From positions 1 through 45,172 of the forward strand of contig JAKEFB010000093.1 of the NCBI GenBank assembly GCA_022616275.1: a stretch of 45,172 bases of DNA, given 5' to 3'. Source of the stretch: Chloroflexota bacterium (lineage in GTDB: Bacteria > Chloroflexota > Anaerolineae > Promineifilales > Promineifilaceae). The notes under the pieces are model-generated. The model had not been told where the DNA came from, did no database searches, and was given only the letters and a program-made list of their open reading frames with translations. Numbering within the stretch: position 1 is the first letter of the stretch; each line of letters starts with the position of its first letter. Positions 246-15,853 of this stretch are shown here, in pieces. The translations under genes and the position numbers were made by a program.

Positions 246-1160
246 TTAACCAGATGGTTGAAACTGCACCTGCAACTGGTAAGGCACTACCTCGTTCAAG
301 TCCCCGTCATTGCTGACATAGATGAAGTACCTGCCCTGCGTCTGCACGCCCAACTCGACGATCTTGGTCGTGCTAAAGTTGCCATTGCTCCCCAGGAAAA
401 CGGCGTTACTGCAGTTGCTACCTTTGTAGACAGCCACCTGGCCAGCCAGGGGAACAAAATTATCTACCCGGACGGTCAAGTTACGGGTAGTGGTCAAGTG
501 GAACCAGTACCAGTCGTTAGGATCGTTCGGATAGAAGTTGTAAATAACGTTCGGTGAGATAGTAAATGCCTCCTGGCAGAAATTATTGGGCTCACCCGCT
601 GAAAAGTTGAAAAAGAGAGTGGGCAAAAAGAGGAAGTGAAATGGCGGCCCACCGGTTGCCGTCGCCGTAGGGGTAGGCGATGGTGTGTCGGTTGGTCCGG
701 GCTCAGTGGCCGTAGCTGTTGGCAACGGTGGTGTGGGCGTGGGTAGCTCTGGCGTGCTGGTTGGCGTGTCCGTCGGTTGGGGCGATGGCGTGAAGGTTGG
801 TGTGTCAGACGGCACAGGTGGTGGTGTCCAGGTCGGCGTGTGAGTAGGTGGTAGGGGTGTGTCGGTTGGCTCGGGCGTTGGCGTGTGGGTTGATGTGGGC
901 AATGGCGTAGCCGTGTCTGTTGGGATATCCGTGTCGGTGGGCTGGGGTGTCTCAGTGTCCGCAGGTTGAGAAGGAACCGTGTCTGTCGGCTGCGGTGTGC
1001 CTGTGTCGGTGGGCTGGGGTATATCCGTCTCTGTGGGAGTGCCCCCCACGACGGCCGCCAGGGCCGGCCGGCCGGCGGCCGAAAGCTGCCGGATAGCCGA
1101 CAGGAACGTGGCTACCAGCAGGAACAGGATCAAAAATAGGGGCAAAGGAATGCGCTTCAT
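246..1160 (-). CDS. Secreted Pro/Thr-rich protein with PPC-like C-terminal domain
   Basis: A 304-residue protein. It has an N-terminal hydrophobic signal/anchor (about residues 4-23 after MKR), then a low-complexity Thr/Pro/Asp linker (about 41-170) built from PTDT, PQPT and TPTP units, and a folded C-terminal region (about 191-302) rich in Asn, Asp and aromatic residues with strands such as WYWFHL, NLTVRV and GRYFIYVS. This resembles bacterial pre-peptidase C-terminal (PPC) beta-sandwich domains; two cysteines (about 195 and 240) could form a disulfide. The start chosen is the ATG at 1160, because a signal peptide follows directly and because it overlaps the upstream stop as ATGA; the longer frame to 1340 only shadows the upstream gene. 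It is probably exported and anchored or wall-associated. PPC assignment is by overall pattern; no enzyme motif is visible. Confidence 0.8.
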   Translation of the reverse strand: MKRIPLPLFLILFLLVATFLSAIRQLSAAGRPALAAVVGGTPTETDIPQPTDTGTPQPTDTVPSQPADTETPQPTDTDIPTDTATPLPTSTHTPTPEPTDTPLPPTHTPTWTPPPVPSDTPTFTPSPQPTDTPTSTPELPTPTPPLPTATATEPGPTDTPSPTPTATATGGPPFHFLFLPTLFFNFSAGEPNNFCQEAFTISPNVIYNFYPNDPNDWYWFHLTTTRNLTVRVDNFVPLAGQVAVYKGSNCSNAVFLGSNGNFSTTKIVELGVQTQGRYFIYVSNDGDLNEVVPYQLQVQFQPSG

Positions 1161-2071
1161 GTCAGTTCTCGCTGTAGATAACTCACCCGCTCCAGGCGAG
1201 CGGTAAGTTGGCCGTACACTGCTGGCGCGCTGCGCCTGAGCGATTCCAGATTGAAAATACCGTTGTCCACCACCAGCAATTGCCAGCGGCCGCCGTCGTT
1301 TACCAGCATCAGGTTTTCCCGCCCCAAGAAATCCACGCATAGGCCATGCTGCTGGTATATGTCCAGAGTCCGTTCAGTAAAAAACAGGAACTGGGCGCGC
1401 AAGCCCTCGTGGGTACACATCAGGTGGAGCAGGTCCGCGTTGCTACAATCCTGGAAGAAATCCTTTTTTTCGCCATGGATGTAAGATTGCAAAACGCCGG
1501 CCGCCGGGCTGCCAAAAATCGGCCCGTGCAAAATCAGGAAGTGGGCCAGGGGCACCAGGTTAAAGCGGCCGTTGTACCAGGCACACACTGTCTCGTACTT
1601 GACTTTGAAGAACTGGGCAATTTGCGCCAGACTGTGAGCCTGTTTACCCAGGGAGCGCCGGTATATTTTCAGGACCCAGTCCCCATCCGGCCGCTTTATT
1701 AGGAAAACGGTCGCCCCGGAGCCATAGCTCATCAGTTGCACCTCGGCACTGGCAAAAGGGAAGCGACTGCTGTTAGTCAGCCCGGCCGAAACACGCCGGG
1801 CAAAGCCCGGGATCAGCGTATCCATCAGGTTTATCCAGGCGGCCACCCGTTCGTAATTAGATGATTTCAGATTCAAGATGGCTTGCAGATAAGCCCGGCG
1901 TTGTTGCCGCGGCCGCAAAGAGGCCGTCATGGCGGCGTCCAGAGATTTGTACAAGAGCCGCGATCGCACGACCTCTGCGCCAGCCTGCCAATCAATCCAA
2001 CGAGCCGGCCAGCCCTTCGTCAGTTTCGGTATTATGAGAGCAGCGGTTTGTCTCTTAAAAGTAGACCGCAA
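1157..2071 (-). CDS. Kinase-fold protein (YrbL/APH-like), possible sugar or Ser/Thr kinase
   Basis: About 304 residues. Kinase-like marks are visible: a glycine-containing segment (SYGSGATVFLIKR) followed by WVLKIYRR with a candidate ATP-binding Lys, a catalytic-loop-like CVDFLGRENLML (Asp and Asn in the right spacing, as in HxDxxxxN loops), and LLVVDNGIF, which matches a DFG-like metal-binding motif. The N-terminal ~110 residues are not recognised. The frame is open to a TTG at 2107, but the TTG at 2071 is preceded by AAGGAG about 10 bases upstream, so the shorter start was chosen; either way it overlaps the sulfotransferase end. It ends in an ATGA overlap with the PPC protein. Context suggests phosphorylation of a glycan or lipid-linked intermediate (inference). 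A pseudokinase role is also possible, because the catalytic His is replaced. Confidence 0.66.
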   Translation of the reverse strand: MRSTFKRQTAALIIPKLTKGWPARWIDWQAGAEVVRSRLLYKSLDAAMTASLRPRQQRRAYLQAILNLKSSNYERVAAWINLMDTLIPGFARRVSAGLTNSSRFPFASAEVQLMSYGSGATVFLIKRPDGDWVLKIYRRSLGKQAHSLAQIAQFFKVKYETVCAWYNGRFNLVPLAHFLILHGPIFGSPAAGVLQSYIHGEKKDFFQDCSNADLLHLMCTHEGLRAQFLFFTERTLDIYQQHGLCVDFLGRENLMLVNDGGRWQLLVVDNGIFNLESLRRSAPAVYGQLTARLERVSYLQRELT

Positions 2072-2945
2072 CTTGTTTCTGCTCCTTAGCACGTTCAAAA
2101 AACTCAAGGATCAGGTCGCCTTCCTCTTCTGACAGATACTTCCGCCACTTATTGACCGGGTTATAGAAGGCCATGCCCTTGACGACTCGCTCAAATTGTG
2201 GTGTCCAATCCAGACCACAAAAAGCCAGCAGCGGCCGTAGCGTCTGCTCTGGCTGCATGATCAACTCCTCGTACTGCAACTCATAAGAACGTTCTGGAAA
2301 CTGGGTCACGTTACGCTCAATGTCGTCCAGGTCCATCTGGATTTTGACGGCGGCCGAGAGCAATGGGCCGCGCCCCAGTTCTTCCCAGAGCTGGCGGTAA
2401 TCGGCAGGAACCTCGCCCCACTGCCACGATCCCTCGTCCAGCCCGCTGGTAACGTCTAACCAGCCGGCCTGGACCCAGGAACTAACGACAGAACGGTGTT
2501 CCCGCTTTAAGAAGACAAAAAGGGCATCCGAGAAGATCCGGTCAAAGTAAGCCATGCGGGACCAACCCGTCACTTTGATGAGAAAATGATCTTTGTTCTG
2601 GAACTTCAAGAGCTGTTCCACGGCCCGCCGGACCGGCGCAATGCCTTCGGCGGGAACGTCTTCGGCTGTCAGCGGTCTATCTCGCCGGCTGAAACCGGGC
2701 AGGTAATGCTCCCAAAACCGGTAAGCCTCAAAGGGCTTGGGAAAGAAAGGCAAATGCTTGATTTTCCGGCCGAGCCAGGGCAGGCGGTACAGGTTAGAAA
2801 AGACGGACAGCCAGGCAAACGTGGGCAGGACCTCGTTAAAGGTAGAGAGCCAGCCTACGTCTTCGTGCCGGGCTAACAGCCGGTGCATCATGGTCGAGCC
2901 GCAACGGCCGGTGCCAACGATGATAATTGGTTTCTCAATCTTCAT
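2055..2945 (-). CDS. PAPS-dependent sulfotransferase family protein
   Basis: A 296-residue cytosolic protein. Near the N-terminus, IIIVGTGRCGSTMMHRLL is the 5'-phosphosulfate-binding loop of sulfotransferases (the usual form is GTGRSGTT/S-LL), and FVFLKREHRSVVSSWVQ matches the 3'-phosphate-binding motif with its conserved Arg and Ser. YEELIMQPEQTL matches the YEDL motif common in the Sulfotransfer_1/3 families. The likely reaction is transfer of sulfate from PAPS to a hydroxyl of a glycan or lipid; its place in a polysaccharide operon suggests a sulfated surface polymer (inference). The start is the ATG at 2945 because a strong GGAGGAG sits just upstream; a longer frame to 2975 has no comparable site. 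No PAPS-synthesis genes occur in the window. Confidence 0.85.
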   Translation of the reverse strand: MKIEKPIIIVGTGRCGSTMMHRLLARHEDVGWLSTFNEVLPTFAWLSVFSNLYRLPWLGRKIKHLPFFPKPFEAYRFWEHYLPGFSRRDRPLTAEDVPAEGIAPVRRAVEQLLKFQNKDHFLIKVTGWSRMAYFDRIFSDALFVFLKREHRSVVSSWVQAGWLDVTSGLDEGSWQWGEVPADYRQLWEELGRGPLLSAAVKIQMDLDDIERNVTQFPERSYELQYEELIMQPEQTLRPLLAFCGLDWTPQFERVVKGMAFYNPVNKWRKYLSEEEGDLILEFFERAKEQKQVAVYF

Positions 2946-2986
2946 AACTCTCCTCCTACACATCCATATACCCACATTTCCACACC

Positions 2987-4237
2987 CTAGACCCCTACAC
3001 TCTCCCGTGACTCTCCCTGGACGGCCGGCGCCCGGTGGGCCCTGGACTTTTTCTTGCCCAGGCCCAGGAAAAGAGCCACGCTCTGGCCCAGGTCGGCCAG
3101 GAAAGGGGCCGGATCATTCCAAGAGAAGACGGCGCAGGCCTTGCGGCCGCGCCAGGAGCGCCACCAGTCGCCCAGCGTAAGCTGGCCACGCCGCCAGTAA
3201 TACAGGGCCGACTGAAAGTCATGCCGCCAATAAATCCACTTGGCTCCTCGATACATTTGTTGCCGGTTAGCCGGCAGGGGCCGGCCCAGGGCATCGCAGT
3301 ACATGGTATACAGCAAAGCCACACCACCGGCCTCGGCGATGGACGAGCGGCCGGTGGGCCGGCCGATATTTGGCTCGATGATGGCGTAGTTGCCGGTGCG
3401 GCTATCCCGCTTCATTTCCACGTAGCCCAATCCCCGGTAGCCGATACCCTGGAACAGGGCCAGGGACGTTTGCCGGACGATGTCGTTGCGGACTTCCACA
3501 CCCAGGGAACTGGTTCCTGTGTGGGGCGGCCATTGGCGAAGCTTCCGGGCAATAAACGCCACCAGTGGTTCATTGTTAGCGTTAAAGTAACAGTTGCAGG
3601 AGTACAGGTCGGCATCTGTGCCCTCAATCCACTCCTGGACTATTAAGATGTCGGCATAGGGTGCGCAGCGGTCGTAGAGGGCCAGTAGCTCTTCGCCGCT
3701 GGCTGCCATGTACGCCTTGGCGAGGTTTTGTGCCTGCCACCGGGGCGTCTTAATCGGTGGTTTTATGATGCAGGGATAGGACAGACGGCCGGCGGCTTCC
3801 TCCGCTTCCTGGCGGTTGTGGAGTAGGAAGGTGGCCGGGACGGGTAGGCCGGTTTTTCGGGCATAGGTGAGAAAGCCAATCTTGTCCATCAACATCTCTA
3901 CCACTTCCGGTTCCGGCAGGATTATGTGATACCAGGGTTCCAGTTGCCGGCGGTAGCGGGAGATCAGCAGGACGCTCATATCTATACAAGGGAAAAGGAC
4001 AGCCTTTTGTGGCAACTGTGGCCCCAGTTCCTGAAGCAACTCAATAAAGTCGGTTGTTTTCACGTCGGCGACCAGAATTCGCTGGCAGACCCTGGTCCGG
4101 CAGCAGAAATGGTCCGGGTTGCCGGCGATGCCGATAACCGGGATGCTGTGGCCGGCCAGGATGCGCGCTGTCTGGAGGCCGGTGATGCAATCAAGCCCGA
4201 CGACGATGGCCGCTGGTTTAAGGGCCTGTTGTTTCAT
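2987..4237 (-). CDS. ATP-grasp carboligase (COG3919-like)
   Basis: A 416-residue ATP-grasp enzyme. The N-terminal pre-ATP-grasp domain begins [19 protein letters not shown] and reads the nucleotide-like loop up to about residue 110. The ATP-grasp core follows: a [20 protein letters not shown] segment, CIIKPPIKT with the ATP Lys, [10 protein letters not shown] (adenine contact) and the metal site [25 protein letters not shown] with conserved Glu/Asn. ATP-grasp ligases form amide or ester bonds through acyl-phosphate intermediates; the COG3919-type members often sit in surface-glycan loci. The start at 4237 gives an ATGA overlap with the PEP mutase gene, so the two are very likely co-translated, suggesting a shared pathway: for example, ligating an amino acid to a phosphonate acid. 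Substrate is inference only. Confidence 0.83.
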
Positions 4238-5202
4238 CTGTCTACCTTGACTTGTTCTTCCTGGTGGTCGGAGACGTGCCCGCCCTGGCGGCCGTTCTGC
4301 CCGTTGCCGCCGTTGGCCCATGTGCCATCGCGAACCGGCAGGTATCGTTTCTCGGCCGCTTTCAATTCGGCAGCGTTTTGCAGCCGGAAGATCTCCTTTA
4401 CCGGGACAATCTCGTGCTCAACCGGCAACAACGATTGGGCCTCATAAATCTGGTAGGCCGTCTGCTGCATGGCGGCCACGCTGGCCCGGATCAGGTGATT
4501 GGCCCAGATGATCAGGCTGACTCCGGCCTCGGCAAAGACCTCAGTGGGCGTGTTGTAATACATGGTTGGCACGATCACCACCGGGCAGGTGTCCTGCCAT
4601 TCGTGCATAAAGTCCAAAATCTGATCGGCCGTCGGCAGCTTGCTATGCATCAGGATGGCGTCGGCCCCGGCGCGGTAATAGGCTTCTGCCCGTTTAAGCG
4701 CCTCGGCCAGACCCCAGCCGGCAATAAACGCCTCGACTCGGGCCACTACGCAGAAATCAGGGTCTTCCTGGGTGTCCTTGGCTGCCTGAATCTTGCCCGC
4801 GAACTCCTCGATGTCGGCCAGTGGCTGCAGCTCGCTGTTGATGAAAGAGTTGGTTTTGGGGAAGAGCTTGTCCTCAATGCAGACGGCGGCGACGCCCCGC
4901 TGTTCCAGCTTGCGCACCAGCCGGCGCATGTTGTTAAAGTTGCCGTAGCCGGTATCGGCGTCTAACAGAATGGGAATGGAAGTGGCGTCACTCATAAACT
5001 CGACCATTTCCAGGACCTGGGTCCAACTGGCCTCGTTGTTGTCACGCACACCCAGGGCGGCCGAGATAGCCAACCCGCTACCCCAAATACCCTTAAAACC
5101 GGACTCTTCCACGATTTTGGCGCTGAGGCCATTATGGGCCTCCAGGATAAATTCGAGCTGATCGGAATAAAGTAGTTGCTTAAACTGCGTTGTCTTCTTC
5201 AT
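4234..5202 (-). CDS. pepM: Phosphoenolpyruvate phosphomutase
   Basis: A 322-residue isocitrate-lyase-superfamily protein with the signature that separates true PEP mutases from relatives: [10 protein letters not shown] (about residues 110-119, the EDK-X5-NS motif). Further matches are [14 protein letters not shown] near residue 40 and [11 protein letters not shown] (81-91), whose Asp pair binds Mg2+. PEP mutase converts phosphoenolpyruvate to phosphonopyruvate, forming the C-P bond that begins nearly all phosphonate biosynthesis; the equilibrium lies toward PEP, so a coupled enzyme must pull it forward. Neighbours are a D-2-hydroxyacid dehydrogenase upstream and an ATP-grasp ligase downstream (ATGA overlap). 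No phosphonopyruvate decarboxylase is seen. The start at 5202 is chosen because conserved sequence begins at MKKTTQF. The last ~25 residues are Gly/Gln/His-rich and look like a dispensable tail. Confidence 0.93.
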
Positions 5203-5216
5203 CACAAACTCCTGAA

Positions 5217-5260
5217 AGTGATGAGTAATGAGTGTTGAGAAACACTCATTACTCATCACT
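5217..5260. repeat. Perfect 20-bp inverted repeat (hairpin) between dehydrogenase and pepM genes
   Basis: Bases 5217-5236 are exactly complementary to 5241-5260 with a 4-base loop (GAGA). The arms are made of ATGAGTAATGAG-type words, and a further CATTACTCAT copy follows at 5261-5270, so the element is also a degenerate tandem repeat. It lies in the 64-base gap between the dehydrogenase stop and the pepM start, just upstream of the pepM Shine-Dalgarno. It may slow or partly terminate transcription, stabilise the downstream mRNA, or be a mobile repeat. There is no T-run, so it is not a classical terminator. Confidence 0.85.
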
Positions 5261-5266
5261 CATTAC

Positions 5267-6235
5267 TCATAGTGTCGGTACAACTTCCCAGTCGAAAGCC
5301 AATTCTTTATTGGCCCTTTTGGCGGCGAAGGAATCAATCGTCTCCAGGATAATTTCACCAATCTCTCGCTGGCTATCAATGGCGCCGGCCCCGATGTGAG
5401 GGGTCAGAATGACGTTGGGCAGCTCCGCCAGAGGCGAGATTTTGCCCTCCCCTTCCTGCTCGTGAACGTCCAGGGCGGCCCCGGCCAGGCGTCCTTCACA
5501 CAGGGTCTGGTAGAGAGCGGCCTCGTTGACCACGCCACCCCGGGCCAGGTTGATCAGGAAGGCGCCGGGCTTCATGCGGGCCAGGCTTTGGGCGTTAATC
5601 AGATAGCGGGTGCTTCCTTTTAGCGGCACGTGGATGCTGACAAAATCGGACCTGGCAAGTACTTCGGCGAATGTGGCCAGGCGAATGCCGGATGTGGCCA
5701 GCCGTCCGGCTGCTTCGGCCGTGGGATGCTCCACACAGCCCAGGACTTCCATATCCCAGGCCGCGCCAAGCCGGCCGACGCGCGTGCCAATATTGCCGGC
5801 ACCGACAATGCCTAGCACCTTGCCGGTCAGCAAGTAGCCGGTCAACTCGTGCTTGGCCCACCGCCCCTGGCGCAGCAGCCGGTCGGCCGTCAGGACGTTG
5901 CGGGCCAGGGCCAGCATGAGGGCAAAGCTCATCTCGGCCACGGCCTTGGCCCCCGGGCCTGGAATACGCACCAGGGTAATTTGCCTCCCCTGGACGTAAT
6001 CCAGGTCTATGTTATCTATGCCCGAACCGGCGCGCAGGATTAACCGCAGGTCAGGGGCGCAGCGCATAACGTCGGCCGTAATCTGGACGCCGCTACGGAA
6101 GATCAGCGCCTCACAGCCCGTTATGCGGGCCTTCAGCTCCTCTTCGCCAGCGCCAAAGGCGCAGATCACTTCGTGCCGCTCCTTCAGTTGAGCGATGGCG
6201 TCGGGATAAATAGAACTGGCAATCAAAATCTTCAT
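5267..6235 (-). CDS. D-2-hydroxyacid dehydrogenase (phosphoglycerate-dehydrogenase-like)
   Basis: A 322-residue NAD-dependent D-isomer 2-hydroxyacid dehydrogenase. The catalytic domain occupies the ends and the nucleotide-binding domain the middle, with the Rossmann motif GIVGAGNIGTRVGRLG near residue 145. Catalytic residues of the family are visible: Arg in LINLARGGVVNEAAL, Glu in the VHEQEGEG region and His in LTPHIGAGA. The length is that of a short PGDH without ACT domains. Related enzymes reduce 2-keto acids. Lying 64 bases upstream of pepM on the same strand, it may reduce phosphonopyruvate to phosphonolactate, pulling the PEP mutase reaction forward (inference). A housekeeping role in serine synthesis is the alternative. 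An AGGAG site precedes the ATG. Confidence 0.86.
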   Translation of the reverse strand: MKILIASSIYPDAIAQLKERHEVICAFGAGEEELKARITGCEALIFRSGVQITADVMRCAPDLRLILRAGSGIDNIDLDYVQGRQITLVRIPGPGAKAVAEMSFALMLALARNVLTADRLLRQGRWAKHELTGYLLTGKVLGIVGAGNIGTRVGRLGAAWDMEVLGCVEHPTAEAAGRLATSGIRLATFAEVLARSDFVSIHVPLKGSTRYLINAQSLARMKPGAFLINLARGGVVNEAALYQTLCEGRLAGAALDVHEQEGEGKISPLAELPNVILTPHIGAGAIDSQREIGEIILETIDSFAAKRANKELAFDWEVVPTL

Positions 6236-6395: not shown

Positions 6396-7385
6396 CTAAC
6401 TCGCTTTGGCTAACGGCCGTAATTGGTTCAGATACCAGGACGAATGCAGGAGACGCACCCGTAGCACGGGCAATGTCGCCCGCCGGCCGATGTTGATCCG
6501 CCGTAAACGCAAAGGATCGGCGTAGCGCAGGTCGTTGACGCCCCGGATAGTGGTAAAGGCCAGGGCGAACCCGGCTTGCCGAAGCGCCTGGACGATGTCT
6601 TCTCGGAACTGGCCGCCAGGATAGGCGAAGATGGGCGGCGCCTGACCAACTTCCCGCTCCAGATCTTGTAATGAACCGACAGCTTCAGCCTGGGCCTCCT
6701 GTGATGAAAGCTGGTCCAGGGAGGGATGAGTACGCGTGTGAGCGCCCAGGGTGACCCCCTCGTTGGCCAGTTGCCGCAATTCATCCCAGCTTAACACCTG
6801 GGATTCGGGCTGGGGCGTGTCCAATTCCCGGCAAAGCTGGTAGGTCCAGGCCAGGATCTCGCTGTGGGGCAACCTTCTCAAGTATCGCCGCAAGCGCAGA
6901 AATGCCTGGTAGCGCTGCCGATTGGTAGCCAGGGAGAGCCGCCCAATTGGTGTTTGAATATGATCGCGGTGGCCGGTATGGCGGAGAGCGTGTTCCAGCC
7001 TGTCCCACCAGAAAATGTGATCCGGCCGGTCCGGGAAGGCAGTGGGCACAAACAAAGTTACCGGGAGCCCGTACCGCTTGAGGACGGGCCAGGCACATTC
7101 GGCAAAATTGCGATAAGCGTCGTCGAAAGTAATGAGCACCGAGCGGGGCGGTAGTGGAGTCCCTTCCTTGCAGGCCTCCAGCACCCTGGCCGTAGAGACG
7201 ACATGGTAGTACCTGGACAGGTATTGCATTTGCTGGTCAAAACCGGCCAAGTCTTCAACCTGGTGGTAGGTTAATACCCGCAAAAGATTCGGCCGTTCTT
7301 TATGCAGCCCCTCCAACAACGTTATCACGTGGTTGCCAACGGCGTTGTTCGTCATGACCGTTAGCCATCGCTTTGCCAGAGTCAT
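6396..7385 (-). CDS. Polysaccharide deacetylase (NodB/CE4 family)
   Basis: A 329-residue protein. It shows the CE4 motifs in order: VLTYHQV near residue 38, LITFDDAYRNF (about 84-94, the TFDD metal/base motif), GAHTRTHPSL (about 217-226, the two metal His) and IFAYPGGQF (catalytic Arg replaced by Tyr-Pro-Gly-Gly as in many COG0726 members). CE4 enzymes remove N-acetyl (or O-acetyl) groups from glycans; here the likely target is the polysaccharide made by the surrounding operon. No signal peptide is evident, so it may act on lipid-linked intermediates inside the cell, as seen for COG0726 proteins in exopolysaccharide loci. Its start overlaps the epimerase stop by one base (TGATG), indicating coupling. 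Confidence 0.9.
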   Translation of the reverse strand: MTLAKRWLTVMTNNAVGNHVITLLEGLHKERPNLLRVLTYHQVEDLAGFDQQMQYLSRYYHVVSTARVLEACKEGTPLPPRSVLITFDDAYRNFAECAWPVLKRYGLPVTLFVPTAFPDRPDHIFWWDRLEHALRHTGHRDHIQTPIGRLSLATNRQRYQAFLRLRRYLRRLPHSEILAWTYQLCRELDTPQPESQVLSWDELRQLANEGVTLGAHTRTHPSLDQLSSQEAQAEAVGSLQDLEREVGQAPPIFAYPGGQFREDIVQALRQAGFALAFTTIRGVNDLRYADPLRLRRINIGRRATLPVLRVRLLHSSWYLNQLRPLAKAS

Positions 7386-8314
7386 CAGACCATCTCCTTG
7401 CTTCTGAAGTAACTCGCGGTGAGTTCCAGACCCTCTTCCAGGGTGACAGTCGGCTCCCAGCCAAGTTGTCGCCGGGCGTAGGTGGCGTCCAGGTAAATGC
7501 AGCGCGTCTCACCGACCTTGGCCGGCCCATAAATAGGCTGGCGTTCATAGCCGGTGACTTGTTGCAAGATAGAAAAAAGCGCATTCACGGAAGTGCCCCG
7601 CTCGGAGCCCAAGTTGTATATCTCACAGCCATTCCCGTTGGCCAGAGCCAACAGGTTGGCTCTGGCGCAATCGCCGACGAAGACGAAGTCACGCTCTTGC
7701 CGGCCATCGCCATTAATGATGACTTCATCCCCAGACAACATTCGCCCGGTAAAGATGGCCACCACACCAGCCTCACCGTCTGGGTCTTGCCGGGGGCCAT
7801 AGACATTGGGGTAGCGAAGGACGGTATAAGGCAGACCATAATTGGCGTGGTACAGGTAGAGGTAATGCTCGACCGCGTGTTTGCTGGCCCCATACTGGCT
7901 AAGTGGATTAATCGGATGCTCTTCGTCGCACGGCAGGTAGACAGGCTCACCATAGACGGCGCCGCCGCTGGAAATGTAAATAAAGTGCTGCGTCTCGTAG
8001 CGCCGGGCGCACTCCAGCAGGTTAATCGAACCAATGATGTTGACCTCGGCGTCGTAGCCAGGATCGGCCACCGAGCGGCGTACGTCAATCTGCGCCGCGT
8101 GATGGCTGACAAAATCAGGCCGCTCCTGGTCAAAGAGTTCTCCCAGGCGGGGGCTGCGGATATCCATGTTGTAGAAGGTGGCGGTCGGGTTCAGATTGGC
8201 CAGGCGGCCGGTGGAAAGGTTGTCTACCACAACCACTTCGTACCCATTTTCCAGATACAGGTCCACTACGTGTGACCCAATAAAACCCGCTCCACCAGTA
8301 ACCAGAACTTTCAT
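7385..8314 (-). CDS. NAD-dependent sugar epimerase (UDP-glucose 4-epimerase-like)
   Basis: A 309-residue extended short-chain dehydrogenase. It has VTGGAGFIGSHVVD at the N-terminus (TGxxGxxG NAD loop), VVVDNLSTG (NAD ribose Asp), HHAAQIDVRRSV, YISSGGAVYGE and YGASKHAVEHYL (catalytic YxxxK), and YPNVYGPRQ in the sugar-binding half. This is the GalE/WbpP-like group that interconverts UDP-hexoses or UDP-N-acetylhexosamines. In an exopolysaccharide operon it supplies a nucleotide-sugar precursor. Exact substrate cannot be assigned from the sequence. It is translationally coupled to the deacetylase gene downstream. Confidence 0.9.
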   Translation of the reverse strand: MKVLVTGGAGFIGSHVVDLYLENGYEVVVVDNLSTGRLANLNPTATFYNMDIRSPRLGELFDQERPDFVSHHAAQIDVRRSVADPGYDAEVNIIGSINLLECARRYETQHFIYISSGGAVYGEPVYLPCDEEHPINPLSQYGASKHAVEHYLYLYHANYGLPYTVLRYPNVYGPRQDPDGEAGVVAIFTGRMLSGDEVIINGDGRQERDFVFVGDCARANLLALANGNGCEIYNLGSERGTSVNALFSILQQVTGYERQPIYGPAKVGETRCIYLDATYARRQLGWEPTVTLEEGLELTASYFRSKEMV

Positions 8315-8457: not shown

Positions 8458-9174
8458 TCATTGCTCATTGCTCACTACTGCCGCCGTAGCCCGCCAGAGC
8501 CCCTGGAACTCCCCGATGGCTGCCAATACGTCGGCCATAACCTTATTCAGTGGTTGCTCAGCGTTGACGGTGACAAAGCGCCGAACCTCATCGCGCAACC
8601 GTAAATACTCTTGCCGCCGCCGCTCCAGCAGCTCTATGTTTCCCTCCCCCTTGCGGCTGAGGAGAACCTGGGCCGGCGCATCCAGGAAAATCACCAGATC
8701 CGGCCGGGGGTAAAGATGGCCCAGGACAAAGCCGTGGATACGGCTGGTAAGTGGCCGGTGGGGAGCGTTGTTAGCTACGTCGTAGGCATAATAGTCGGAA
8801 AAGAAGTGTCGGTCCGACAAGACGATGAAACCCCGGCGCTGGTAATACCAGACCACGCCCTGGCGGAACCACTCCTCGGCCAGCCGGTTCGCCAGCCGGA
8901 GGCTGGCCTTCAGCCCGGCCGCCAGCCGCTTGATCGGGTTCTTGGGGCGCGGCCGGACCCGTGCAGGATCAGGCGGGCCGCTCATATCGCTCCCCTTACC
9001 CAACAGTCGCTTCACCAATGAAATCAGGCGGGTGGTTGGCAGAGCAACGTTACTCGATAGCGGGCTAAAGCCCATGTAGATGTACTTAATCGTGTGCGGC
9101 AACTCGCTTTCCAGCCGCCGGGCGATGGTGGTCTTGCCCGATCCATCTGCGCCGATCAACGCCACCATAAACAT
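8458..9174 (-). CDS. Thymidylate-kinase-like P-loop kinase
   Basis: A 238-residue P-loop protein. It opens MFMVALIGADGSGKTTIARRL, a textbook Walker A (GxxGxGKT) of the thymidylate/deoxynucleoside kinase fold. FIVLSDRHFFSDYYAYD matches the DR-Y motif and DLVIFLDAPAQVLLSRKGE matches the LDxPxexxxxRk strand and following lid of the TMK family. It is longer than housekeeping Tmk (~210 residues), with a basic Pro/Arg insert (about residues 70-80). Tmk-like proteins of this type are frequent in surface-glycan and capsule loci, where the substrate is unknown and may not be dTMP. It is 7 bases downstream of the HprK-like gene. Confidence 0.82.
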   Translation of the reverse strand: MFMVALIGADGSGKTTIARRLESELPHTIKYIYMGFSPLSSNVALPTTRLISLVKRLLGKGSDMSGPPDPARVRPRPKNPIKRLAAGLKASLRLANRLAEEWFRQGVVWYYQRRGFIVLSDRHFFSDYYAYDVANNAPHRPLTSRIHGFVLGHLYPRPDLVIFLDAPAQVLLSRKGEGNIELLERRRQEYLRLRDEVRRFVTVNAEQPLNKVMADVLAAIGEFQGLWRATAAVVSNEQ

Positions 9175-9181
9175 CGCTTTT

Positions 9182-10306
9182 TTACCTCCTGCCTTCCTCG
9201 AACAGAGGACCCATAACCTCGAAAAGCCGTGGAATTGGCGCCGGGTAGGGGTGATAGACGACGTAAGTTTCCTTGCCGGCCAGGGCCTGTTGTAACAAAT
9301 GGCGCTGTCGCTCGGCCGAACACTCCAGCAGTTCGTTCCGGCACGTGGGAAAGGCGAAGCAGAACTTGCGGTAATAACCGTTAAGCTCCTGCTGCTCTTC
9401 CTGAAGGGAAAAGACCATGCGCTGGCTGATCTCTTCCGGCTCTATCGGTTGAACGGTTACTTCGGCCGATTCGTGGCTGACGACGAAAAAGAGCCTGTCC
9501 AGTGGGCCGGCGAGTGGGCAACAGGCTTGGCCGAAGGCTTCCAGCGGCGACAGGTGGGTATATTGCTGTTTCTGCAGCAGCGGTCTGGCCCGCCGGATCA
9601 TCTTAAACGGTCTCCAGCCCTGGCCCTTCAATAACGGCTGGTCCAGGATTCCCGTCAGCCACTCTAGCGCCTTCAGCCGGGCGCGCGTTCCTCTATCCAG
9701 AAGCGCCTGGTATTGCGGCAGATAATCCAGGTGCCACTGCCACACCCGGATCGGTTCGGGAATACCAAACATCTGCTGGCCTTCCCTATCCAGGTAAACC
9801 CATTCGTCGCCCACGTAAGCCGCACCCTGGCTCATAAAGGCCAGCAGCGTCTCCGTTTTGCCGCCTTTGGCCCAGCCCGTGGCCAGGGCTCCCAGGCCCC
9901 GGTAGAGAAAGGCCGAGGCGTGTAGCGGCAGGTACCCCTTGCCCAGCATGGTCAGGTTGATAATAGCCATCAGCAGAGGGACGGCCGTCAGGCCCCGTTC
10001 ACAAATAATTTCGCAGCGCTGCCCTACCTGGTCGAAGGGAATCTGGACTCGGGCCTGGGATTTGTGTTTGCCGCGTAATACCAGAAAGGCATCCTCGGTA
10101 AAGCCGGCGTCGTCAACGCCCAGGTAGCGTAGTGGCGCCGTGGTGGGCAGCCGGTCTACGAAGCGAATGACCATGTCAGGCTCACGAGAGAGAGAGGCGC
10201 CAATGGGGCCAATCTGGCGCGTGACCATAGCTACGTCGCGCTCTGTAGCCCCTAGCAGGCGGATACCCAGGATCCCGTGCAGATCGTAATCCACAGCCTC
10301 AACCAT
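9182..10306 (-). CDS. HPr kinase-like (HprK-type) ATPase of glycan locus
   Basis: A 374-residue protein. PLHASAFLYRGLGALATGWAKGGKTETLLAFM (described in pieces: PLHASAF near residue 127, GWAKGGKTE at 144-152) gives the conserved HA strand and Walker A of HPr-kinase-like proteins; AAYVGDEWVYLD (about 162-173) matches the VSDD/VGDE metal-binding segment that follows in HprK. It lacks the long N-terminal domain of true HprK and no HPr is near. Such HprK-like proteins occur in polysaccharide and modified-peptide clusters. The ATG at 10306 was chosen because it overlaps the polymerase stop (TGATG) and is preceded by GAGGAGGGG; the frame to 10357 is only a shadow. Role: probable phosphorylation of a small molecule or protein in the pathway (inference). 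Confidence 0.78.
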   Translation of the reverse strand: MVEAVDYDLHGILGIRLLGATERDVAMVTRQIGPIGASLSREPDMVIRFVDRLPTTAPLRYLGVDDAGFTEDAFLVLRGKHKSQARVQIPFDQVGQRCEIICERGLTAVPLLMAIINLTMLGKGYLPLHASAFLYRGLGALATGWAKGGKTETLLAFMSQGAAYVGDEWVYLDREGQQMFGIPEPIRVWQWHLDYLPQYQALLDRGTRARLKALEWLTGILDQPLLKGQGWRPFKMIRRARPLLQKQQYTHLSPLEAFGQACCPLAGPLDRLFFVVSHESAEVTVQPIEPEEISQRMVFSLQEEQQELNGYYRKFCFAFPTCRNELLECSAERQRHLLQQALAGKETYVVYHPYPAPIPRLFEVMGPLFEEGRR

Positions 10307-11868
10307 CAGCGCCCCTCCTCTACCGGGAGAACAACTGGAACCACCTCTGGTGACCAATCTTCCTGGCTGCCGGCCGTCAACTGAACCAACTCGCTTTCCT
10401 GTGCGGCGCGGGCTATAGCGCCGGCCGCCCCAGCCAGGGCCATCATCAGCCAGAAGTAGCGGGCGTAGGACAGGTGCAAAAAGAGGCCGGTGGTCAGGTA
10501 GGCGACAATGGCCAGGGCAAAGGTACCGGCCAGGTTAGCCAGCTCTGGACGGGAGCGGGCCAATTGCCGGCGAGCCCGGAGCAGGTTAAACAGAGTGACG
10601 GTGACGATGGCCAGAAAACTGACCAACCCCAGAAAACCGTTGTCGGCGGCAACGCCAAGGTAGAGAGAGTGGGCTTCCCGGGTCCCTTCTAATATGCCGG
10701 GGTTGATCCGGTTGCCGTACTCCGTTGAGTAATATTTAAACATGCCTGGGCCTACCCCAATGAGTGGATGATCGGCAAAGACCAGGGCAGCGGCCAACAT
10801 CTCGGTGGTCCGGCCCTCGATAGACCCATCTTCGAGACTATCTTCATCCGAAAAGAGGGCCAGGAGCGATTGCAGCGAGGCCAGGCGTGTACCGTATTGG
10901 GGCAACAATGCCAGCAGCAGGAACGCGACCAGCAGGACGGCGATTATCTGATAGGGCTTGATCAGGCGCATGAAGGCTATGATGACTAACAGCAATAAAA
11001 AGCCTACGGCCACGCCGCGCGAAAAAGTGAGAATGACACCTACACCAATGACGGCCGTAACCAGCAGGGCCAGCAACCGCAGGAGGAGTGAGCGCTCGCC
11101 CCAAAAGCGGAACAGGCCCAGCGGCACCAGCATAAGCAGTATCTGAGCAAAGCGGTTTTGCTCGCCAATAGCCCCGGCCAGGCGTGGCTGCCGGACTTCA
11201 CCCAACAGCGTCTCTTCGCCGGTGCGAAAGCCGACTTCCGAAATCTGGCCAAAGCCGCCATAGATGTTGTCGAAATCCCCGGTAAGCTGCTGGTAGATGG
11301 GAACGACGGCCAGCGCCACCCCGGCCAACAACAAGACCCAGACCACACGGCGCAGCATCTCCGGCGTGCGTACGACGTTGGTAATCAGGAAGTAAATTCC
11401 CAGACCCTCGATGATAAAGACAGTTAATTCGGCAAAAGCCCCGTTGATGTCCCTGGCAAAAAGCGTGCCCAGGAACTGGATAAAAAGGAAGAGCAGAATA
11501 AAAGGCAAGGCCGGGGTGAAGACCAACTTCTGGCGGCGCAAGACCAGGTGGGCCGTCAGCGGGATAACCAACAATAGAGGGAAGGCTGCCCCCACCAGGT
11601 AAGGAACGTCGTGGAACCTCACGGCTACCGCGGCGATGTTGGAGTAAAGAATGAAAATAGTAGCCAGCGTAGCCACGTCCGGCCAGGTCAGAATAGCCAC
11701 GGTGAGTGGAAGGGCCAGGATAGCCACGACCGCCAGCAGCGGCTGCTCACTCGCCAGTAGCCCACCGGCCGCGGCCACAGCCAGCGCGCTGGCGGCTACC
11801 AGGAATAGCCCCAATAAGCGCGACCGGGGTTGGAAGTCGTATGGCCGTGTTTCCCCTATCGTCGTCAT
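10306..11868 (-). CDS. O-antigen polymerase/ligase family membrane protein (Wzy/WaaL-like)
   Basis: A 520-residue polytopic protein with about 12 hydrophobic segments. The Wzy_C region is recognisable: LTFSRGVAVGFLLLLVI (SRG/A motif), a long extracytoplasmic loop containing GRTTEMLAAALVFADHPLIGVGPGMFKYY, and EAHSLYLGVAADNGFLGL, which matches the conserved H-N/S-xxL xxxxE/D-xG pattern of Wzy_C. Wzy proteins join undecaprenyl-linked repeat units outside the membrane; WaaL proteins ligate them to an acceptor. In a locus with a flippase and a Wzz-like protein, polymerase is the more likely role. Start and stop overlap the neighbours (ATGA with the GT2 gene, TGATG with the HprK-like gene). Confidence 0.88.
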   Translation of the reverse strand: MTTIGETRPYDFQPRSRLLGLFLVAASALAVAAAGGLLASEQPLLAVVAILALPLTVAILTWPDVATLATIFILYSNIAAVAVRFHDVPYLVGAAFPLLLVIPLTAHLVLRRQKLVFTPALPFILLFLFIQFLGTLFARDINGAFAELTVFIIEGLGIYFLITNVVRTPEMLRRVVWVLLLAGVALAVVPIYQQLTGDFDNIYGGFGQISEVGFRTGEETLLGEVRQPRLAGAIGEQNRFAQILLMLVPLGLFRFWGERSLLLRLLALLVTAVIGVGVILTFSRGVAVGFLLLLVIIAFMRLIKPYQIIAVLLVAFLLLALLPQYGTRLASLQSLLALFSDEDSLEDGSIEGRTTEMLAAALVFADHPLIGVGPGMFKYYSTEYGNRINPGILEGTREAHSLYLGVAADNGFLGLVSFLAIVTVTLFNLLRARRQLARSRPELANLAGTFALAIVAYLTTGLFLHLSYARYFWLMMALAGAAGAIARAAQESELVQLTAGSQEDWSPEVVPVVLPVEEGR

Positions 11869-13061
11869 GACGCTCTCCTCTCCGACGGCTGGGCGATGAC
11901 CCCGGCTTCACCAGCTTCCGGCCGGCGTGTTTCCCACAACACGATGCGCCGGCCCTGGAGCACATTCCAGACGGCCAACAGGCAGGCCAGGTTGACCAGG
12001 CAGAAGTAGAAAGGCAACGAGAAGAACTTCACCCGGCCCAGCCTGGTTCCCTCCAATAACATCCCGGCCGCCGCCAGCCCATAGAACCCCAGTTGGGCCA
12101 GCGTAACCAACTGGTAAAACAGCCCATAAGACCACAACAGGGGGCTGGTTACCAGCAACAACAGTAGCGGAAAAACCACCAGCCGCCGCAACAGCTTGTG
12201 CGAAAAGAGCTGCAGGGCATAGAAACCGTAGCGGAACGGATTCAATAACTGGCCCATGAACAACACGGCCCGCAGACCACGAGTAATGACCCGTACCTTG
12301 CGGCCGAACTCCCGCCCGCGAGTGCCGGCGACCGGCTCGTAGGCTACAGCCTCCGGGGCAAAGACCAGCCGGTAACCCTGGGCGATGACCCGGGTAGAGG
12401 TGACAAAATCGTCAGTCACTCCCTCCGGGACAGGCAAGAATAACTCCCGGCGAATGGCGTAAATGGCGCCGGTCGCCGAAATGACGTTGCCGGCCCGGCT
12501 TTGAAACCGCTTGAGCTGCCGGTCAAAGCCCCAGTAGCTTTTTTCACCTTCGCCGGCCGAGGTAGACCCGGTGTGGGACAGGTAACGCTGGTTGCCGGCC
12601 ACGCCACCTACCCTGGGATCAGCAAAGGGTTGCACCAGGAACCGCAAGGCCTGGTGAGCGTACATACTGTTGGCGTCGGAAAAAACCAGGATGTCGCCGG
12701 TAGCTATAGCCACGGCCGCGTTAAGCGCCGCCGCCTTGCCCTGGCGGGGTAGAGGCAGCAGTTTGACGCCCCGCCCGGCGTATTGGCGAACGATATCATT
12801 GGTCCCGTCGCGGGAGCCGTCCGAAGCGACAATGACTTCCAGCCGCTCGGCCGGGTAATCCAGCGAGAGGATGTTTTCCAGCTTGGCCCGAATAGAGTCG
12901 GCCTCGTTGTAGGCGGCAATAATCACACTGGCGCGAGGTATGGCCGGGGCCTGGTGATATGGCCGGGCGGCCAGCAGACCACGCCAGAAGATCAATAGTG
13001 GAAATACAACGTAGGTATAGAGAATCAGGCCCAGGGCCAGCCAGAATAGCGCCAGGATCAT
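11865..13061 (-). CDS. Membrane glycosyltransferase, family 2
   Basis: A 398-residue protein. An N-terminal membrane segment (about 3-27) is followed by a GT-A domain: ASVIIAAYNEADSI (about 44-57), EVIVASDGSRDGTND (about 75-89), ILVFSDANSM (the DxD/DxN motif, about 124-133), GNVISATGAIYAIRR and VTDDFVTSTRVIAQGYR (the ED/TDD catalytic base region). Two to four C-terminal membrane segments follow (about 285-375). This is the layout of processive or membrane GT2 enzymes such as hyaluronan/PgaC-like synthases, though the QxxRW motif is replaced by RKVRVITRG. It adds a sugar from a nucleotide-sugar donor to a lipid-linked acceptor on the cytoplasmic face. Linked to neighbours by ATGA overlaps at both ends. 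Confidence 0.9.
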   Translation of the reverse strand: MILALFWLALGLILYTYVVFPLLIFWRGLLAARPYHQAPAIPRASVIIAAYNEADSIRAKLENILSLDYPAERLEVIVASDGSRDGTNDIVRQYAGRGVKLLPLPRQGKAAALNAAVAIATGDILVFSDANSMYAHQALRFLVQPFADPRVGGVAGNQRYLSHTGSTSAGEGEKSYWGFDRQLKRFQSRAGNVISATGAIYAIRRELFLPVPEGVTDDFVTSTRVIAQGYRLVFAPEAVAYEPVAGTRGREFGRKVRVITRGLRAVLFMGQLLNPFRYGFYALQLFSHKLLRRLVVFPLLLLLVTSPLLWSYGLFYQLVTLAQLGFYGLAAAGMLLEGTRLGRVKFFSLPFYFCLVNLACLLAVWNVLQGRRIVLWETRRPEAGEAGVIAQPSERRAS

Positions 13062-14293
13062 TGGTTCACCTCCCTCGCAAAGCGCCGGGCCAGGACGGCC
13101 GCGTTGGCATGAAGGTCAAAGGCCTGCAAAATCACTTCTCGCCCGGCCTGGCCCATCTGCCGGCGCGTCTCCGGTTCGTAATAGAGGCGGGCCAGAACGC
13201 CGGCCAGAGCTTCAGCTTCACCAGGGGGGACCAGCAGGCCGGTATGGCGGTCTTTAACCAGCTCCGGGATGCCGGACAGCCGGCTGGCGACGACGGGCAG
13301 CCCGCAGGCCATCGCTTCCATCAGAACCACTGGAATGCCTTCACGCCGGCCGTCCTGGCTGGGCACACTGGGAGCGACCAATACGTCAGCTTCCTGCAGC
13401 AGCCGGACCACTTCTTCCCTGGTTTTACGCCCCAGAAAGTGAACACAGTCGGTCAGGCCGGCTGCGGCCGCCTGGGCCATCAGGGTGGCTTCATCTGGGC
13501 CGTCCCCCACGAAGCGACAAGTAAAGGGGATACCCTTCTCCCGCAGCAACCGGCAGGCTTCCACCAGGTGTGTCTGGCCTTTAACCTCGTGCAGAGTGCC
13601 AATGCTCAACAGGTTGAGTGGCCCTCCATCCGGGCTATGGCCGTTGCGGCCCGGCCGGGGCTGGAAATAGTGGCTGTCTACGCCGCAATGAATAACTACC
13701 AGCTTGTCGTCCGCCGTTCCGTTGAGCCCACATGCTTCCATGATCACTTCCCGGTTGAACTTTGAAATGGGAACAACAAAGGCCGCCTCGGCTACTTTTT
13801 CCCGCAGCATTCTTTTTTCGCGGTGAATGTCGGAGCCGTGGGCGGTGAAACTATAAGGGATGCCCGTCAGGCGGTGGATGAAAAGAGCCGCCGCCGCCGG
13901 GTGGCTGGCAAAGTGGGCATGAATGTGACTGATGCCTTCGGCCGTCATCTGGCGCGCGAAAAGGGCGCTCTTAGGAATGATGGCCAGCGCCCCAAAGAAG
14001 TAGCGCAGGCTACCCCAGTTGTGGCGCAGCAGGGTCCAGACAGAGCCCAGGTATTGGCGCGGCCGGCGGCGCAGGTAATACAGATTGGCCCGCAGAATGG
14101 ACCAGGAAAGAGTAGGCTGGTAATTGGCCCGTTCCACCAAAGGCCTGGCTTCCGGGTGCATAACCGTCGTCCGTTCTCGCCACAAGGGGTAAAGGGCGAC
14201 GTGAACGCCTTGCTCCTCCAGAGCGACTATCTCGTAAAGGATGAACGTTTCCGTGAGTTTGGGGAAACGGGACATAACGTAGGCGACACGCAT
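13058..14293 (-). CDS. Glycosyltransferase family 4
   Basis: A 411-residue GT-B enzyme. The N-terminal half starts MRVAYVMSRFPKLTETFILYE, a motif typical of exopolysaccharide GT4 proteins, and contains HIHAHFASHPA and FTAHGSDIH. The C-terminal donor domain has LLSIGTLHEVKGQTHLVEA, FVGDGPDEATL, VHFLGRKTREEV and the E-X7-E motif EGIPVVLMEAMACGLPVVAS (about residues 308-327). Such enzymes transfer sugars with retention of configuration. It is cytosolic or membrane-associated. The 3' end overlaps the GT2 start by ATGA, and the gene starts 4 bases after the flippase frame ends. Confidence 0.92.
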   Translation of the reverse strand: MRVAYVMSRFPKLTETFILYEIVALEEQGVHVALYPLWRERTTVMHPEARPLVERANYQPTLSWSILRANLYYLRRRPRQYLGSVWTLLRHNWGSLRYFFGALAIIPKSALFARQMTAEGISHIHAHFASHPAAAALFIHRLTGIPYSFTAHGSDIHREKRMLREKVAEAAFVVPISKFNREVIMEACGLNGTADDKLVVIHCGVDSHYFQPRPGRNGHSPDGGPLNLLSIGTLHEVKGQTHLVEACRLLREKGIPFTCRFVGDGPDEATLMAQAAAAGLTDCVHFLGRKTREEVVRLLQEADVLVAPSVPSQDGRREGIPVVLMEAMACGLPVVASRLSGIPELVKDRHTGLLVPPGEAEALAGVLARLYYEPETRRQMGQAGREVILQAFDLHANAAVLARRFAREVNQ

Positions 14294-14297
14294 ACCT

Positions 14298-15852
14298 TTA
14301 CAATCCTAGAAATGGCCGCAGCACCGGAATTCGCCGCAGCTCGGGAAACATTTGCCCCACGTTCAGCGCCTTGTGGTTCAACCGGACGATGGACAGAGAC
14401 ACAAAGACCACCAGGGCGCCGCTGATAGCCAGCGGAGGATTGAATAACGTCTGTACCAGCAGCATACCAACCGCCGCCACGATGATGCTGGCGTAGACTC
14501 GCAAATAGCGCCATTGGAACAGGTCAATGCCTGTACCCAGCAGCAGCCCGGTGTGGTTGAGCAGGTTGTGGGCAATGAGGGCGATGCACGTGCCGACGGC
14601 CGCCCCCAGCTCACCGTAAGCGGGAATCAACCACAGGTTGAGGCCCAGCCCTAGCAGAGCAGCCAGCAGGTCTATCACGACGATATAACGGACTTTGCCG
14701 TAAACCCGCAGAGTGTAGCTGTTGAAGCCAACGGCCGCGTTGAAGTAGTTGCCCAGGGAGAGCAAGGCCAGAATAATGCCCGATTGGGCGTACCGCGAGC
14801 CAAATAACAACACCGTCAGCGGCTGGGCCAGGGCGAAGGAGACGACAAAGACCGGGAAGGAAAAGACGGCAATCCAGATAGCCGTCCGCCAGTACAGATC
14901 GTTGATGCCGGCCTTGTCGTCCCGGGCAAAGAGGCGGGCCGCCATAGGCGTATACAGGAACTTGAAGCTCTGCATAACTACCAGGTTTAATCCGGCCACC
15001 GGGATAACTGCCCGATTCAGCTACGTCGCGGGTCCCCCGGAAAAACTCCAGGAGCATAACCACGGCCGAACTACGCAAGATATAGACCACGTCTGTCGTT
15101 AGTAAGGGGATGCTGAAACCAAAGGTCTCGCGTACCGGCCATTGAATGCGGCCGGGGTCAAAATGGTGTAAAAGCCCCCGTTCCCGCAGCACCTGCAAGA
15201 TCATGAGAACGTAGACGACCTCACCAAAGAGGCCTCCTATCAGGTAGCCAAAGGCCAGTAAGTAAACATCACCCCGGGCAAAGAGAACCAGGAGCACGGC
15301 CGCCAGTTTTAGGCCCGGTCCCAGCAGGTGGCGGCGGAAGAAGATAGCGGTGGGGCTGGCAAACACGGCCAGCATGCCCTGGAAGAGGCTATCCAGCGCC
15401 TGCGTCGGGGCCAGGGCAATCAGGATCAGGAGCAGAGCCAGGGATAGCGGATCGGACACAAAGGAGCGACCCAGGATGCCCTGCAAGCCGAGGACGATCA
15501 TCACCAGAGAGATCCCAATGCCGAGGACAGTCCCCACCATAAGCAGGAGAGCCCCGAACATCCTGGCATATCGGCGCTGCTCCTGGTAAATAGGAACGAA
15601 ACGGGTAACGGCTTTGTCCAGGCCAAAGAGGGCTACGCTGGCGCCCATCGAAGCCACAGAGAGAGCATAAGAAAAAGCGCCAAAGTCGCTCTTGGAGAGG
15701 TAACGGACTGTCAGGACCTGGATGACGAAGTTCAGGCCCAGGGAAACAAATCGCCCGATTAGCAGCAGACTGGAACCACGAATGTGCTTCCGCGTCGTAT
15801 CCCTCTTTGGCGAGGTTGCAGCGGCCGAGACGCGGGCAGGAACTGTGTCCAT
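14298..15852 (-). pseudogene. Wzx-type polysaccharide flippase, interrupted by a frameshift
   Basis: Two frames together make one MATE/MOP-type flippase of about 517 residues. The 5' part (start ATG 15852, MDTVPARVSAA) carries SLLLIGRFVSLGLNFVIQ, LSKSDFGAFSYALSV and later FSIPLLTTDVVYIL, then VVMLLEFFRGTRDVAE. There the frame is lost near 15005-15020 and continues out of frame to 14611. The 3' part resumes one frame over as RAVIPVAGLNLVVMQSFKF and continues to 14298 with six or so membrane segments. A TAG at 15023-15021 blocks the second frame upstream, so the break lies in a window of ~20 bases. The net change is +1 or -2; restoring two bases would give the family-like order DVAEFRAVIPVAG. 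It could be a sequencing/assembly error, a real mutation, or (less likely) programmed shifting. Confidence 0.85.
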
Positions 15853-15853
15853 T

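Follow-up and report, generated by a model that had tools for sequence, protein, structure and literature searches.

The DNA analysed here, called the window below, is one whole contig (JAKEFB010000093.1; 45,172 bp) of the Chloroflexota genome G000, an assembly of 8.53 Mb in 309 contigs with a completeness of 98.25% and a contamination of 5.5%. Within a co-directional polysaccharide operon on its minus strand lie three consecutive genes, encoding a D-2-hydroxyacid dehydrogenase (HADH), a phosphoenolpyruvate (PEP) mutase (PepM) and an ATP-grasp ligase. These genes recur together in several phyla, the genomes that carry them have no phosphonopyruvate decarboxylase above the profile cut-off, and the trio is missing from an otherwise similar operon in a genome of the same family. 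It looks like a swappable substituent cassette of this operon, which is the principal new result of this work. We put at about one in three the probability that the trio decorates polysaccharides with phosphonolactate attached through its carboxyl group, as the amide of an amino sugar and without a decarboxylase, a nucleotidyltransferase or a phosphonyl ester, that such decorations are exchanged by swapping the ATP-grasp ligase together with the acid-making enzymes, and that two genomes from this phylum rely on a diverged mutase with an EDN motif.

In the proposed pathway, PepM would rearrange PEP to phosphonopyruvate, and HADH would reduce the latter with NAD(P)H to phosphonolactate, a step that would stand in for decarboxylation and pull the unfavourable mutase reaction forward. 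The ATP-grasp ligase would then activate a carboxyl group, in the simplest case the one on phosphonolactate, for coupling to an amine. In the window operon the amine would probably be that of an amino sugar deacetylated by the product of the adjacent gene, and this choice of acceptor is the least certain step. The end product would be a polysaccharide bearing amide-linked phosphonolactoyl groups with the phosphonate left free. The core of this chemistry, reduction of phosphonopyruvate followed by ligation, seems to us reasonably likely, each catalytic step being predicted from sequence.

As stated in a first-pass annotation of the window, the PepM protein contains the EDKX5NS motif; its match to TIGR02320 lies above the curated cut-off (Table 1), and the family profile finds the PEP mutase 1m1b/1pym in the PDB at 538 bits. 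The window PepM is a PEP mutase, with the conversion of PEP to phosphonopyruvate as its predicted activity. Its open reading frame (ORF) extends to 5259, the likelier start being the ATG at 5202 behind a CAGGAG, and its stop overlaps the ATG of the ATP-grasp gene at 4237 in an exact ATGA, again as annotated. Pfam scans likewise bear out the placing of the three genes in one co-directional operon with flippase, polymerase and glycosyltransferase genes, all on the minus strand.

The evidence for a cassette comes from related operons. In G307, a genome of the same family, 12 of the 17 window operon genes are found in the same order at 37–73% identity, and there is no match to HADH, PepM, the window ATP-grasp, the epimerase or the outermost protein in the 20-kb stretch compared. 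The G307 genome as a whole has no PepM match and no window-type ATP-grasp at E 1e-40 (HADH was searched for in the 20-kb stretch only). A different ATP-grasp gene, of the ATPgrasp_Ter type and 25% identical to the window protein over 220 columns, stands in G307 between the genes for a thymidylate-kinase-like (TMK-like) protein and the deacetylase, and a distant ATP-grasp (26–27%) occupies the place between the same two genes in G232 and G390. The comparison with these three genomes suggests that some ATP-grasp ligase is usual in this operon, and that where it is the PepM-linked type, HADH and PepM come with it; in this sense the trio acts like a cassette for a substituent.

A GTDB-wide PepM scan gave 572 confirmed stretches, the best 80 of which are the PepM loci considered here; counts at these loci are profile matches on stop-to-stop frames. 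Window-type HADH and/or ATP-grasp genes were found at 14 of the 80 loci (hereafter the set), HADH at 13, ATP-grasp at 13 and both at 12, with HADH directly upstream of PepM in 13. The set extends over Chloroflexota, Ignavibacteriota, Bacteroidota, Acidobacteriota and Thermodesulfobacteriota, L037 being without a phylum; in L040 the contig ends soon after PepM. Gene orders include HADH–PepM–ATP-grasp, ATP-grasp–HADH–PepM (L055) and, with a gene for an HPr-kinase-like (HprK-like) protein and the TMK-like gene inserted, HADH–PepM–HprK–TMK–ATP-grasp (L037, L038). The order varies while the content stays, which we count in favour of the proposed cassette, and the standing of the trio as a real recurring unit is supported. 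A quick tree search places the PepM proteins of the 14 loci and the window in one group (SH-aLRT 86). Outside the set there are 62 long PepM frames, with nucleotidyltransferase-like tails read by eye in three (L042, L052, L064), as well as short frames in L039 and in L062, L065 and L100, which reach contig ends. One record, L069, is titled Nitrosospira, yet its PepM falls among Nitrospira on the tree, and it is possibly a mislabelled bin.

Within the class, PepM, the ATP-grasp ligase and the HprK-like kinase were each searched for in 397 genomes, taken as the same set each time, with at most four or five candidates scored per genome; four of the set loci reappear there (L032 is G375, L034 is G113, L035 is G329 and L036 is G093). 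PepM is matched at E ≤1e-30 in 13 genomes. Five of these matches, including G000, are 75–100% identical over most of PepM, and G132 has a 76% fragment; the other seven (G096, G255, G118, G237, G292, G309, G343) are 31–44% identical. Among the latter, the G096 protein is the EDN variant discussed below, that of G255 is hydrolase-like (TIGR02321 at 346 bits, below cut-off), and the stretches matched in G118 and G237 hold no HADH or ATP-grasp.

No decarboxylase, aminotransferase or cytidylyltransferase was found among 30 scanned ORFs of the window (a scan that passed over, for example, 35951–36448, 39807–40883, 40876–41466 and 44546–44995), in agreement with the first-pass annotation, for which a phosphonopyruvate decarboxylase gene (ppd) just outside the window would have been fatal. 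The profile TIGR03297 finds none above cut-off in the whole G000 genome; the six weak matches, the best at 35 bits, lie in frames of 525–655 amino acids (aa), as would be expected for other thiamine enzymes. G000 therefore lacks, at this cut-off, the decarboxylase that marks a Ppd-dependent pathway, and has an HADH gene adjacent to pepM with no ppd above cut-off, an arrangement expected of a reductase of the VlpB kind. In a profile search of 23 genomes in all, a decarboxylase above cut-off was present in none of the 17 genomes with the set (completeness is stated for seven of them, at 81–99%, and for none of the other ten). Among six control genomes with a long PepM frame, five have the decarboxylase above cut-off, and in the sixth the match is split into two parts of a single contig (172 and 129 bits). 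The search of other genomes proposed in the first-pass annotation has thus shown both the recurrence of the triad and the absence of a ppd above cut-off, and on this ground we reject a decarboxylase outside the window for G000 and the other set genomes, a two-piece match in G329 excepted.

The ATP-grasp protein shows weak resemblance to LysX, RimK and Ddl, and its NCBIfam matches are weak. That it has an ATP-grasp domain is indicated by the CPSase_L_D2 match above cut-off and by its residues: in 13 aligned rows of relatives K119 and K159 are invariant and E274, E288 and N290 nearly so, which we take to be the conserved lysines and the E..EPN metal site of the ATP-grasp fold. Seven of the 397 class genomes contain a member of the subfamily scoring above 600 bits, six of them together with PepM or its variant; the next genome reaches 220 bits. 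In L038, L047 and L077 the ligase gene has FemAB-like genes downstream of it, which fits acyl or amide chemistry, short of proof. Plasmid matches are only 27.7–28.9% identical among the 20 listed from 60 records.

Several observations weigh against the proposed pathway. At two trio loci, L055 and L063, a scan of six neighbouring genes apiece recognised none for polysaccharide assembly; the neighbours include Amj, PEP carboxylase, integrase and DUF362 genes in L055, and RND efflux, YchF and PKD genes in L063. In L045 the place of HADH beside PepM is taken by an immunoglobulin-domain gene. The genome G200 has the ATP-grasp (616 bits; sulfotransferase and FemAB genes adjoin it) with a sole TIGR02320 match of 44 bits, and G000 itself contains an orphan ATP-grasp gene (L116 3713–4906, contig 117), 59% identical to the window copy, which lies close to a transposase-like fragment with no PepM or HADH within the 12 kb taken; the ligase is therefore not strictly tied to PepM. 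The trio-bearing G329 has a decarboxylase-like match in two pieces (126 and 76 bits; contig 74, ~3235–4250), away from its PepM contig, perhaps a sulfopyruvate decarboxylase. A careful PepM tree does not unite the set in one clade but requires two label changes, with one change in 43% of bootstrap trees; shuffled labels require 14, so that the set PepMs are strongly clustered, in a way compatible with a single origin without demanding one.

The surroundings of L055 and L063 suggest that the core product of the trio need not be a glycan everywhere. They would suit an alternative in which the product is a soluble conjugate of phosphonolactate, an amino-acid amide or ester of the sort that ATP-grasp ligases form in valinophos or the phosphonoalamides, and the polysaccharide setting is incidental. 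A condensation-domain protein near the trio of L047 points the same way, and ATP-grasp phosphonopeptide ligases are known (PMC11867202). However, the trio lies inside a long co-directional polysaccharide operon in both the window and G610, deacetylase genes adjoin it in L032 and L036, polysaccharide export and FemAB genes stand beside it in L038, and G307 has another ATP-grasp in the corresponding operon. Even L055 is perhaps not wholly unlinked to the envelope, given Amj, a flippase of the envelope-lipid type. A soluble conjugate is, in our opinion, rather unlikely; glycan decoration is likely in the window operon, as a feature of that setting more than an established property of the trio itself.

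HADH (322 aa) has its best NCBIfam match in the phosphoglycerate dehydrogenase (PGDH) family TIGR01327, a 525-position model, at 268 bits against a cut-off of 454, and its closest PDB matches are phosphoglycerate dehydrogenases. It might on these grounds be a second phosphoglycerate or hydroxypyruvate dehydrogenase, apart from the PepM step. We find this improbable. G000 encodes elsewhere a separate PGDH-like protein of 531 aa, which scores 224 bits, versus 620 for HADH, with the window-type profile (the window protein being one of the four rows of that profile). Moreover, the position directly upstream of PepM is kept in several phyla, and EGEG replaces EP in 13 of the 16 set HADHs (EWEG, EGDN and EGPG in the remainder). 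Aligned with four other HADHs of G000, the 16 set proteins retain R47 (15 of 15 rows with letters there), R68 (16 of 16) and the catalytic Arg/Glu/His of the D-2-hydroxyacid dehydrogenase family (R232, E261 and H280, 16 of 16). R47 and R68, which we take to correspond to the phosphate-ligand arginines of PGDH, are also present in the 531-aa protein, whereas two of the other three G000 HADHs lack both and one lacks R47. Their retention would fit a phosphonate-bearing 2-oxo acid, namely the product of PepM, as the HADH substrate. Among plasmid relatives of HADH the best is on a Streptomyces plasmid, with no annotated PepM within 9 kb.

A further alternative assigns activation to the P-loop kinases instead of the ATP-grasp ligase: they would convert the phosphonate to a phosphonyl-phosphate or similar species for transfer to a sugar. 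The TMK-like kinase is indeed found in six and the HprK-like kinase in five of the 14 set loci (in L038 the relative of the latter matches Hpr_kinase_C at E 0.002, below cut-off), and both occur in the window and in G610. Yet both are also present in G307, G232 and G390, all without a PepM match, and the HprK-like kinase was found in 11 class genomes, 6 of which have no trio. We have therefore rejected the two kinases as members of a phosphonate unit; the G307 operon, which is without the trio, shows that the kinases, the deacetylase and the sulfotransferase are general operon genes, and kinase-based activation seems distinctly unlikely. Reversal of the pathway into catabolism, with HADH oxidising salvaged phosphonolactate and PepM returning PEP, would agree with a PepM equilibrium lying >500-fold toward PEP (PMC12871164) but is very improbable: the genes are linked to those for an ATP-grasp ligase and for polysaccharide assembly, and the 30 scanned window ORFs include none recognisable as serving phosphonate uptake.

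The proposed phosphonolactate route may also operate with a diverged mutase. In G610, of the same phylum, genes for HprK-like, TMK-like, HADH, mutase, ATP-grasp and deacetylase proteins follow one another consecutively, and the mutase (L115 9810–10706) has EDNLFPKRNS for EDKX5NS, is 34% identical to the window PepM, belongs to a separate lineage and scores 249 bits with TIGR02320, below cut-off. The same EDNLFPKRNS occurs in G096, of the same class (L029 9161–10069), where the TMK-like, deacetylase and HADH genes are ~7 kb away and the ATP-grasp gene ~11 kb downstream on the same contig. Both mutases keep the N before the S; the hydrolase-like L028 has T (EDKRFPKDTS). As HADH and the ligase are kept in both genomes, the EDN mutase probably makes the same product as PepM. 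Of 19 records of plasmid relatives of the EDN mutase, three were examined, and all three have EDK. Two plasmids are of interest in their own right. Priestia megaterium plasmid NZ_CP085446.1 (L160) combines a PepM-like gene with two ATP-grasp, two thiamine-enzyme, carbamoyltransferase and M20 peptidase genes and resembles a phosphonopeptide cluster, and Streptomyces scopuliridis plasmid NZ_CP109092.1 (L159) has a PepM-like gene (EDKIFPKRNS) with aconitase, isocitrate/isopropylmalate dehydrogenase and dioxygenase genes, likely a phosphonate cluster.

Reductive use of PepM is known in kind. According to the flavophos preprint (PMC12871164), the enzyme that drives PepM may be a decarboxylase, an aminotransferase or, with phosphonolactate as the product, a 2-hydroxyacid dehydrogenase; VlpB has been named phosphonopyruvate reductase (PMC11867202), and phosphonolactate is counted among the early-branch phosphonates (PMC9961378, citing Li and Horsman 2022); the share of FrbC plus VlpB is put at 8.1% and that of Ppd or PalB at 91.9% (PMC11933879). 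Since reduction by VlpB was already known, the polysaccharide-operon trio is a variant of a known route. The overall interpretation in the first-pass annotation has gained from the recurrence of the trio, the lack of a decarboxylase above cut-off, the separate PGDH-like protein and the retained arginines; its reductive step, however, had been published in kind.

Valinophos biosynthesis similarly employs PepM, then a 2-hydroxyacid dehydrogenase giving phosphonolactate, and the ATP-grasp enzyme VlpF, which esterifies valine to an alcohol (Zhang et al. 2022 JACS, cited in PMC12871164, PMC11867202 and PMC12723261). It differs in yielding a Streptomyces small molecule built on dihydroxypropylphosphonate, whereas the window, from a different phylum, has its unit of three genes inside an operon for a polysaccharide. 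The phosphonoalamide system PnaABCD (PMC11867202) likewise pulls PepM without decarboxylation and ends in ATP-grasp ligation, but by way of transamination to phosphonoalanine, with two ligases and a peptide product. PepM genes near surface-polymer genes have been reported for phosphonate polymers made via Ppd (PMC9381506, PMC8931226). The long PepM of that type has a nucleotidyltransferase-like tail, unlike the window PepM, whose genome has no decarboxylase above cut-off. Phosphonate polymers made via Ppd use a CMP-activated phosphonyl ester mode, whereas the linkage in the window would be through a carboxylate. No description of the trio as a polysaccharide cassette was found in the literature searched, which consisted largely of papers outside subscription. 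If the proposed decoration is true, surveys would have a further PepM branch to count, one that does without decarboxylase and lies in the surface-polymer operons of several phyla, and a new polymer-bound phosphonate should be visible by 31P nuclear magnetic resonance. The trio is a compact enzyme set, and the matched operons with it (G000) and without it (G307) permit direct comparison.

Table 1. The trio, the remaining genes of the polysaccharide operon and a repeat in the window.
Feature	Position	Strand	Evidence and remarks
D-2-hydroxyacid dehydrogenase (HADH), proposed phosphonopyruvate reductase	5267..6235	-	Pfam PF02826/PF00389, 2-Hacid_dh_C 193 bits
PepM, phosphoenolpyruvate mutase without fused cytidylyltransferase	4234..5202	-	TIGR02320 398.4 bits (cut-off 319.55)
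ATP-grasp ligase, own subfamily	2987..4237	-	Pfam CPSase_L_D2 25.9 bits (cut-off 19.8), 71 residues only
Polysaccharide deacetylase, general operon gene	6396..7385	-	PF01522 83 bits; relative in the G307 operon, which is without the trio
NAD-dependent sugar epimerase/dehydratase	7385..8314	-	PF01370 220 bits; G307 has a different ATP-grasp at that position
Thymidylate-kinase-like (TMK-like) P-loop kinase	8458..9174	-	PF02223 47 bits; predicted model pLDDT 83
HPr-kinase-like P-loop kinase	9182..10357	-	HprK_rel_B 18.5 bits only
Wzy/O-antigen-ligase type polymerase	10306..11868	-	PF04932 (Wzy_C) 70 bits
Family 2 glycosyltransferase (GT2)	11865..13061	-	
GT4-type glycosyltransferase	13058..14293	-	
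Flippase	14611..15906	-	PF01943 49.5 bits
Wzz chain-length/ParA-like protein	15854..17548	-	two Pfam matches, each slightly below cut-off
Uncharacterised protein kept in the G307 operon	17705..18604	-	no Pfam match; 43% identity to L147 (G307) counterpart
Initiating sugar-phosphate transferase	18682..19326	-	PF02397 232 bits
Sulfotransferase, general operon gene	2055..2975	-	PF13469 70 bits; 58% identity in G307
Uncharacterised protein kept in the G307 operon	1157..2107	-	no Pfam match; 37% identity to L147 (G307) counterpart
Perfect inverted repeat, 20 bp arms (21 bp stem when folded)	5217..5260		between the HADH and PepM genes

Read along the minus strand, the operon begins with the initiating sugar-phosphate transferase, an unknown protein, Wzz/ParA, the flippase, GT4, GT2 and Wzy, and continues with the HPr-kinase-like and thymidylate-kinase-like genes, the epimerase, the polysaccharide deacetylase, HADH, PepM, the ATP-grasp ligase, the sulfotransferase and two further genes. 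A gene on the same strand (246–1340), whose protein has a long Pro/Thr-rich stretch, no Pfam match and no match in the G307 operon stretch, overlaps the gene at 1157–2107. The inverted repeat between HADH and PepM folds with –35.5 kcal/mol over a 96-nt stretch (z –5.0), is without a T-run and, in the pattern tried, occurs at a single place in the G000 genome; it could control how PepM is expressed, or it could be the scar of a recombination event.

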